Positions 18,293 through 35,487 of a DNA stretch of 35,487 nucleotides are shown one piece after another (the stretch's first letter is position 1; each line of letters begins with the position of its first letter). Source of the stretch: a bacterium (GTDB taxonomy: Bacteria > JAMCPX01); NCBI GenBank assembly GCA_021787665.1, contig JAJYLN010000023.1:1-35487 (forward strand), read 5' to 3'. Under the pieces are notes generated by a model. It did not search any database, was not told where the DNA came from, and was given only the letters and a program-made list of their open reading frames with translations. A program made the position numbers and the translations under genes.

Positions 18293-18934
18293 ATGGAAAC
18301 CTACCGCAAAGAATTATGGTTCGACGTGCTCATCGATAAGATCGGAGGCATAGGCGTCGAGAGGTCTTATGCGAAGGACGGATGTATTTTCAATGAGGGA
18401 GAGAGCCCCCGATTGATGGGGTTGATCATCGAGGGGAGGATCAAGGTCGTCAAGCATTCCCCGGAAGGCAAGGACGTTATCGTACGTATCATCGAAAAGG
18501 GGCAGATATTCGGCGAGGTGGCCGTCTTCGACAACAGGCCGTACCCCGCTTCAGCCGTCGCCATGGTAGATACAAAGGCATTCGTACTCGAGAGGCATAA
18601 GCTCACAGAGCTGCTCAACCATGAGCCACAGATAGCGCTCGACATCATCAACGACCTTGGAAGGAAGCTGAGGGACCTTATCGATACCGTCAAGAACATA
18701 GCGACGGAGCACGTGGACAGACGAATCGTATTTACCTTCCTGAAGATGTATGAGGCGAGTGCCAGCCCGGTCCTGAAGCTGAAGAGGCAGGATGTCGCCG
18801 AGATGTGCGGTACGACTGTCGAGACTGCGATACGGGTCACGAGAGAACTGGAGAAGAGCGGCTACATAGCGACGGACCGCGGCGAGATTACGCTGTCGAA
18901 TATACCTGCACTAAGAGCCTACGTGGAGAAGTAA
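18293..18934 (+). CDS. Crp/Fnr-family transcriptional regulator
   Basis: The 213-residue product has a cyclic-nucleotide-type beta-barrel with GEVAVFDNRPYPASAVA (74-90) as the phosphate-binding cassette, a dimer helix (about 105-145), and a winged HTH with RQDVAEMCGTTVETAIRVTREL (165-186). The recognition helix keeps Glu and Arg (ETAIR) but not the FNR Ser, so the target is neither plain CRP nor plain FNR. No N-terminal cysteine cluster is present, so it is not an iron-sulfur oxygen sensor. The start is uncertain: ATG 18293 lacks a ribosome site, and an in-frame GTG at 18266 is possible; the longer open frame overlaps the opposite SDR gene. It probably controls the divergent SDR unit, by position. 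Confidence 0.85.
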   Translation: METYRKELWFDVLIDKIGGIGVERSYAKDGCIFNEGESPRLMGLIIEGRIKVVKHSPEGKDVIVRIIEKGQIFGEVAVFDNRPYPASAVAMVDTKAFVLERHKLTELLNHEPQIALDIINDLGRKLRDLIDTVKNIATEHVDRRIVFTFLKMYEASASPVLKLKRQDVAEMCGTTVETAIRVTRELEKSGYIATDRGEITLSNIPALRAYVEK

Positions 18935-18957
18935 ACGACCGCGGCCATAGACGAGAC

Positions 18958-18978
18958 GGTGGCTTCTGAAAAACCACC
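18958..18978 (+). terminator. Weak stem-loop after the Crp-family gene
   Basis: GGTGG and CCACC pair around an 11-base loop, 23 bases past the stop codon, followed by TCTTACTTTCT. The stem is only 5 bp and the T-run broken, so terminator function is doubtful. Confidence 0.3.
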
Positions 18979-18991
18979 TCTTACTTTCTGT

Positions 18992-19173
18992 TCAGGACAG
19001 TACCCTGCCCAGTAGGGCGACCAGCAGGACCGCCATGCGCAGGCTCATAACGCCGTAAAGCCTATGACAGGAGGGATAGCACCGGCGATCGAGCCGGGCA
19101 CAGACGCGAACGCGCTCTTCCTCTTAATATGCAGGTACACCGCGTTGTACCAGAAGACCGCGAGCAGGCCCAT
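18992..19173 (-). pseudogene. ctaB: Heme O synthase (ctaB/cyoE) remnant
   Basis: From 19173 down to a TGA at 19045 the minus strand reads 42 residues, including LLAVFWYNAVYLHIKRKS, then AFASVPGSIAGAIPPVIGFTAL. This is the conserved middle of protoheme IX farnesyltransferases (WYNxVYxxxKRKTAFAxVPGxxxGAIPPxIGW). The frame stops where the family continues. A second short frame (19048-18992) reads SLRMAVLLVALLGRVLS, which resembles a last membrane helix of the family. Both the N-terminal part, with the first Asp-rich prenyl-binding motif, and the part between are gone. The gene cannot make a working enzyme. Confidence 0.8.
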
Positions 19174-19174
19174 G

Positions 19175-19249
19175 CATGCCGAAGAACATGATCTCCGAGA
19201 ATATGAACAGCTACATGCCGAGCTTGCCGCCGGTGGCGCCGTCGCGCAC
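19175..19249 (-). pseudogene. ctaE: Cytochrome c oxidase subunit III (ctaE) N-terminal remnant
   Basis: The minus strand reads GATGGKLGM, a TAG at 19211-19213, then LFIFSEIMFFGM. In subunit III of heme-copper oxidases the stretch is KLGMWLFxxSExMFFGG, so the TAG replaces the conserved Trp, consistent with a G to A change. The frame ends at 19175 and runs directly into the ctaB fragment, so nearly all of subunit III is deleted. Confidence 0.72.
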
Positions 19250-19254
19250 TCCCG

Positions 19255-19367
19255 AGGGGGCGACGGTATACTCTACTCGAGCGTGACCCCGCCCACGGGT
19301 CGGCGGGCGCCTTTTTACCTCTGTACAGGGCATAGATTAGGTTGGCGAACATGAGGGTAAGCGCGGG
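19255..19367 (-). pseudogene. ctaD: Cytochrome c oxidase subunit I (ctaD) C-terminal remnant
   Basis: The minus strand reads ALTLMFANLIYALYRGKKAP and then ADPWAG. A one-base loss at about 19287 is followed by TLE, TAG (19273-19275) and SIPSPP. Subunit I proteins end with (helix)xxSLxxGxxAPADPWGAxTLEWxIPSPPP, so the last helix, the Pro-Trp block and the TLEW-IPSPP block are all recognisable, with Trp again changed to TAG. The heme- and copper-binding body of the protein is missing. Confidence 0.78.
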
Positions 19368-19565
19368 CACACAGCGAAGCTGGGTCGGGCGACCTCTACG
19401 ATTGACCTGTTCAATGCCAACGAAGAATCCACGCTCTTCCACAAGAGGACGGACCATGATAAGGAGGAGGTGGCTATACTTATATCACGTGAAGTGCTAT
19501 TACTGACTTCAGGATACACGTAACCATAGATAAATAAGGGAACGAGAGAAGGAGGTAGTGGATTT
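19368..19565. other. Intergenic stretch upstream of the NYN gene
   Basis: Nothing here matches a gene. The minus strand is open across part of it in the frame of the ctaD fragment but shows no recognisable oxidase sequence. The last 15 bases contain AAGGAGGTAGTGG, the ribosome site of the NYN gene. No convincing promoter was found. Confidence 0.4.
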
Positions 19566-20471
19566 ATGACAGGTGAAAGGAAGTGCGCGATGTTCGTGGA
19601 TTTCGAGAACGCCTATGTAGGGTATGTCGATTTCTATGGGAACGGCGACAAGGCCCTGGACAATCTGCTAGACACGCTCAAGCGGATAATAAAGAAGCAC
19701 GGGGGCGAGAGCCAGAGCCTGCTGATAAAGAGGGCGTACGCCGATTGGGAAAAGCTCCACGAGAAGTCGGACAGCGATTTCCAGCGGCCTCTCGCTTTTC
19801 TGGGGATAAAGCCTTCCTACGTGATGAGCAGCTACCGGAAGAACAGCACGGACATCGTGCTGTCGATGGCTGCTCAGGAAGTACTGCTGACCAAAGAGGA
19901 CTTTACGGACTTTATCATCATAGGTGGCGACCGGGACTACATGCCCATCGTCGCTATACTGAAGGAGAACGGCAAGGCGGTAACGGTGTACGGCAGCAAG
20001 GAGTCGACGGCCGGCGACCTCATAGAGATTGTCGGCGAGGCGAACTTCTTCTACCTGCAGGACATGCTGTCGCAGCCCGGCGAGGTGGCGGACGATGCCG
20101 GGCCGGAAGCGCAGAATGTCCCGGACGTCCCCCAGAACAATGCGAAGGGGCGCCAGCGCGGCGCCTCCCGCAGGCGATCACTCCTCCCGGAGCACCTCAC
20201 CGAGGCGAACTTCAGGAAGACCGTCAGGTTGATCCAGGATGCGGAGGAGAGCTATTCGAGCAAGGAGATATGGCTTGGTCACTTCTACCGGAAACATATG
20301 AACGAGGCTTTTGCGAACCTCTCCGACGAGCAGAGGAAAGAGATCATTACCCGGCTCGAGCACGACGGTATTTTAACGGTGACGAACACCGGGTCGCGCT
20401 CGATCCTGCGCCTGAACAGGGAGCACCCCAGGGCCAGGAAGCTGATGGAGCCGTCCGCGGAGAGGAAGTAG
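19566..20471 (+). CDS. NYN-domain (LabA/DUF88-like) protein with winged-helix end
   Basis: NYN domains are PIN-like nucleases that cut RNA using a cluster of acidic residues. Here they are seen as FVDFEN (10-15; Asp12), [12 protein letters not shown] (94-105; Asp96) and GGDRDYMP (120-127; Asp122, Asp124). Residues 160-205 are a polar, low-complexity linker. The end (about 210-290; [25 protein letters not shown]) looks like a winged helix of the kind often fused to NYN domains for RNA binding. AGGAGGT lies about ten bases before the ATG. It stands alone, followed by a strong terminator. Its RNA target is unknown. Confidence 0.85.
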
Positions 20472-35182: not shown

Positions 35183-35487
35183 TTAGTTATGGTTTCCTCT
35201 CCCGTTGCCATTACCGTTTCCCCTGCCATTGCCTCTGCCATTACCATTGCCGTTTTCATTATTCCCCTCGGACTGATTGGGCGACGAGGACGATTCGACC
35301 TTCTTTGCCTGACCGGGCGGTATGAAAGGCCGCGGGGCCGGGGGCTGCTCGATCTTACGCGCCTGACCGGGCGGTATGAAAGGCCGCGGGGCCGGGGGCT
35401 GCTCGATCTTACGCGCCTGACCGGGCGGTATGAAGGGCCGCGGGGCCGGGGGCTGCTCGATCTTACGCGCCTGACCGGGCGGTATGA
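35183..35487 (-). CDS. Pro-rich tandem-repeat protein with Asn/Gly/Arg tail (3' end)
   Basis: The minus-strand frame enters from the right edge and encodes 100 residues to TAA at 35183-35185. Three identical copies of an 18-residue unit, FIPPGQARKIEQPPAPRP, are followed by a partial fourth that ends IPPGQAKKVESSSS. A tail of alternating Asn, Gly and Arg follows (GNGNGRGNGRGNGNGNGRGN), ending HN. I do not recognise the protein. PPGQAKK-type units occur in various exported proteins of unknown function. It is followed by the propeller gene on the same strand, so the two may be one unit. The start is outside the window. Confidence 0.75.
   Translation of the reverse strand, partial: IPPGQARKIEQPPAPRPFIPPGQARKIEQPPAPRPFIPPGQARKIEQPPAPRPFIPPGQAKKVESSSSPNQSEGNNENGNGNGRGNGRGNGNGNGRGNHN
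35308..35487 (-). repeat. Perfect 54-bp tandem repeats
   Basis: Units lie at 35308-35361, 35362-35415 and 35416-35469, with 18 bases of a fourth to the window end. They are in frame (18 codons each). The only difference seen between units is A to G in the AAGGCC/GGGCC stretch of the third. Such identity means recent expansion or ongoing slippage and copy-number change. Confidence 0.95.

Follow-up and report, generated by a model that had tools for sequence, protein, structure and literature searches.

The gap between a gene for a Crp-family regulator (ending at 18934) and an NYN-domain gene (starting at 19566) raises the question of whether this bacterium once possessed a heme-copper terminal oxidase that has since decayed in place. 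The gap lies in a window of 35,487 nucleotides, the whole stretch of DNA analysed here. A preliminary description, made from the letters of the window, had read the gap as a minus-strand fossil of ctaD, ctaE and ctaB that retains their order. Our analysis leads to much the same answer: very probably, the gap holds what is left of an A-family heme-copper oxidase operon (ctaD-ctaE-ctaF-ctaC-ctaB) that was functional in this lineage and was then inactivated and mostly deleted.

Four collinear pieces of a cta operon

Comparison by blastn with the intact operon of G001, a genome of the same genus (contig C133, locus L041), reveals four pieces on the minus strand in operon order, which together span 19370 to ∼19022, or ∼350 bases. 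The 3′ end of ctaD (19254–19370; oxidase subunit I residues ∼479–517 of 542) has 71% nucleotide identity to L041:10826–10943 and scores 57.2 bits. It is followed by the 5′ part of ctaE (19174–19234; subunit III residues ∼23–42 of 213), which is 95% identical over 61 nucleotides to L041:11055–11115 (97.8 bits). A ctaB piece (19051–19181; heme O synthase residues ∼113–156 of 293) matches L041:13195–13310 with 72% identity over 116 nucleotides (19181–19066; 66.2 bits), and a second one (19022–19061; residues ∼229–242) matches L041:13541–13580 with 82.5% identity over 40 nucleotides (41.9 bits). The ctaD, ctaE and first ctaB pieces also match the operon of G003, a genome from another genus of the same family, with the ctaE piece showing 87% identity over 69 nucleotides.

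All four pieces, including the second ctaB piece as the weakest, score above the 35.6 bits that are the best result from 1000 dinucleotide-preserving shuffles of 18940–19565. The translated search proposed in the preliminary description likewise recovers the expected proteins, with 46.6 bits for CtaD residues 479–506, 40.8 bits for CtaE residues 23–42 and 73.2 bits for CtaB residues 113–156. The CtaD match has an E value of 2.1×10−6 in a whole-genome search. The second CtaD match (residues 498–517; 24.6 bits) and the second CtaB match (residues 229–242; 23.9 bits) do not exceed the best protein-level shuffles (26.2 bits for both proteins), and thus these segments are identified from their collinearity and from their similarity at the DNA level. 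A plasmid collection searched with the remnant gave no match.

Lesions and deletion junctions

Alignment with the intact copies reveals two TGG codons that have become TAG stops, one in the KLGMW motif of CtaE and one in the TLEW motif of CtaD, as well as a one-base deletion in the NPWGG codons of CtaD, all as the preliminary description had reported. The large internal deletions that it proposed are also evident. Relative to G001, all of ctaD before residue ∼479 is missing, including the portion with the active-site residues of subunit I, and the ctaD/ctaE boundary is reduced from ∼104 bases to ∼15. A deletion of ∼2.08 kb has removed the rest of ctaE, ctaF, ctaC and the start of ctaB, and another of ∼0.2 kb lies within ctaB. 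At the ctaE/ctaB junction (19174–19181, minus strand), comparison with both parental ends in G001 reveals the letters CGGCATG common to the two, which would fit illegitimate recombination between short repeats. At the junction within ctaB, the two ends overlap imperfectly by about ten bases. An 11-nucleotide direct repeat (19012–19022 and 19384–19394; 91%) lies on either side of the remnant. It could be read as the scar of a deletion or an insertion, but we did not adopt this reading, since the repeat is probably due to chance.

These lesions are known from one draft assembly of the species, and they might conceivably be absent from the organism if an intact operon had been collapsed or mis-joined during assembly. 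The genome is in 35 contigs, and we found no independent assembly of this species. However, the pieces are 71–82% identical to the intact copies (95% for one short piece) rather than near-identical, and the substitutions, the two stops and the one-base deletion are spread over several places, a pattern that collapse would not create. Moreover, other contigs hold no leftover intact cta sequence. An assembly artefact is therefore very improbable.

A different reading would be that old pieces have been built into a small functional gene or RNA, for example through the open reading frame of 131 codons at 19062–19457 on the minus strand. The length of this frame carries little weight against chance, as 106 reading frames of at least 100 codons occur over the 35 kb, mostly overlapping others, in a window with 57.6% G+C. 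Past the ctaD frameshift this frame reads the remnants out of frame, and the same junction is present in no relative, so that a functional product of this kind is scarcely credible.

What the locus does present is homology in operon order on one strand, disruption by stops, a frameshift and deletions, and intact counterparts in relatives, which is the profile of a pseudogene. Young pseudogenes in Salmonella are removed quickly by deletion (Kuo and Ochman 2010; PMC2916853), and the two situations are alike in that disrupted genes are eroded by deletions to scraps. Here, in contrast, four pieces are left of an entire operon, and the lineage is uncultivated. A literature search for oxidase pseudogenes turned up no directly comparable case among the papers listed. 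The cta remnant is a well supported but ordinary pseudogene remnant, and not a new kind of thing.

Intact counterparts and the history of the operon

In G001, the genes SCO1-ctaD-ctaE-ctaF-ctaC-ctaB occupy L041:8518–13739, each confirmed by Pfam, and ctaC carries a cytochrome c domain. The same order, as read from open reading frames, is found in G003 (L042:8178–13366). Only these two of the nine family genomes have an intact CtaD match, and the genome under study has the fossil only. The two intact operons share gene order and strand with the remnant, in line with the preliminary description, and have 71–95% nucleotide identity to the retained pieces. They differ from it in being complete and open-framed, and in residing in another neighbourhood. 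A cta operon at the same chromosomal place, which had been suggested as a check, is absent in the relatives, where the surrounding blocks are rearranged; a counterpart at the same place is not a requirement for pseudogene status.

The timing of the loss was addressed with 348 sites aligned among this genome, G001 and G003. There are 54 changes unique to this genome, distributed as 8, 12 and 34 over codon positions 1, 2 and 3. The share at third positions is well above the neutral expectation of one third (p = 8×10−6) and equals that of the intact copies (30 of 45). Thus, most of the divergence appears to have accumulated while the cta genes were under selection. The neutral share of the divergence, estimated from only these 348 sites, is 0.11 and could be as large as about 0.5. 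These values support a late loss of the oxidase within wide limits. The preliminary description had called the loss fairly recent, and this holds in a relative sense only: recent is meant in comparison with the time since this genome and those of G001 and G003 diverged, and does not provide an absolute date.

The third-position bias also bears on whether the pieces were ever part of a working operon in this lineage, or whether rearrangement or transfer brought them here as a scrap of some other organism or contig. Gene order among the relatives breaks at this site, and a shortened copy of a dispersed repeat (19363–19438) borders the ctaD remnant at the upstream edge of the locus. In addition, lateral exchange seems to have affected the intact operons of G001 and G003, which have 85–92% identity per gene versus 77% for the Crp genes of the same two genomes. 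Against this, the concentration of changes at third codon positions implies that the sequence diverged while functional, though possibly in another host before transfer, and the sequences that match it best come from its own genus and family. We consider the arrival of a scrap unlikely. Under the favored explanation of decay in this lineage, the operon would have worked for most of the time since divergence from the G001 and G003 versions. It would then have been inactivated, if we infer the order of events correctly, and mostly lost through deletions, of which at least one presumably arose by illegitimate recombination between short direct repeats. What is left would now be without function.

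On the G001 contig, the genes that flank the operon have matches of 71–73% in G003. The higher identity of the operons, compared with that of the flanks and Crp genes, suggests that the cta operon was transferred between the G001 and G003 lineages. The remnant is more distant from both operons than these are from each other. Tentatively, the operon could have moved between genera in the family, and the pieces kept in this genome would come from a separate version that is more divergent. If so, lineages would repeatedly acquire and lose the oxidase as an accessory module.

Two multi-copy repeats are located just downstream of ctaB in G001 (L041:13863–14105 and L041:14998–15142), and the first of these is also found directly beside ctaB in G003 (contig C11, 8048–8180). 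This first repeat may thus have travelled along with the operon. The dispersed repeat adjoining the ctaD remnant is 84–88% identical to many copies in relatives. It reaches ∼130 bp at full length elsewhere, has short internal palindromes and is present in many copies in all family genomes, with longer copies in loci L013, L014, L016 and L020. No Rfam family reached its gathering score in five loci carrying this repeat, and one copy, pieced together manually from copies in the family, does not fold in an unusual way (z −1.77). The repeat resembles a small, non-autonomous mobile element.

Respiratory genes left in this genome

Neither COX1 (PF00115) nor COX2 (PF00116) has a match in this genome, for which the assembly is 92.7% complete, and a DNA search of the genome with the whole G001 contig detected no other cta DNA outside the window. 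The loss of the oxidase, which the preliminary description had stated outright, is accordingly best given as likely, as the portion of the genome absent from the assembly might hold an intact copy. A search for other oxidases had also been proposed, and it uncovered a divergent cytochrome-bd-like protein of 507 amino acids (locus L052:1258–2781, on contig C6 of this genome) with a weak C-terminal cytochrome c match. This protein is a candidate for the remaining terminal oxidase. Because its gene remains, loss of all aerobic respiration does not follow from the remnant.

The preliminary description had termed the lost enzyme aa3-type, a label that implies heme A and that is not supported. Heme A synthase (COX15/CtaA; PF02628) was found in none of the nine family genomes, not even in the two that have an intact operon. 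The same model gave matches in seven control genomes, though it could miss a divergent synthase. The fragments themselves cannot reveal the heme type.

An open frame of ∼150–174 amino acids in all eight relatives has a COX1 match limited to the first third (positions ∼2–149). These frames are situated on G001:C42, G002:C109, G003:C66, G004:C30, G005:C265, G006:C52, G007:C349 and G008:C72. Two of the eight score below the family cut-off, and this genome has no such match.

Complex I was described earlier as intact beside the remnant, and this holds for the subunits covered here, A to H, J and L to N, all of which we recognized in open frames. One uncultivated lineage would thus have lost its heme-copper oxidase while keeping complex I, and relatives still have the enzyme. 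Beyond the annotation of this locus, the case provides a caution for inferring metabolism from the presence of genes. Complex I-like stretches with 67–77% identity to the window genes, in the same order range, are also found on contig C20 of this genome (14100–23467) and likewise on G001:C66, and suggest a second complex I cluster.

At the end of the contig, a 54-base tandem repeat (35307–35487) is present in 3.4 copies with 99% matches. Contig C34 of the same genome starts with this repeat sequence, and the repeat probably caused the contig break.
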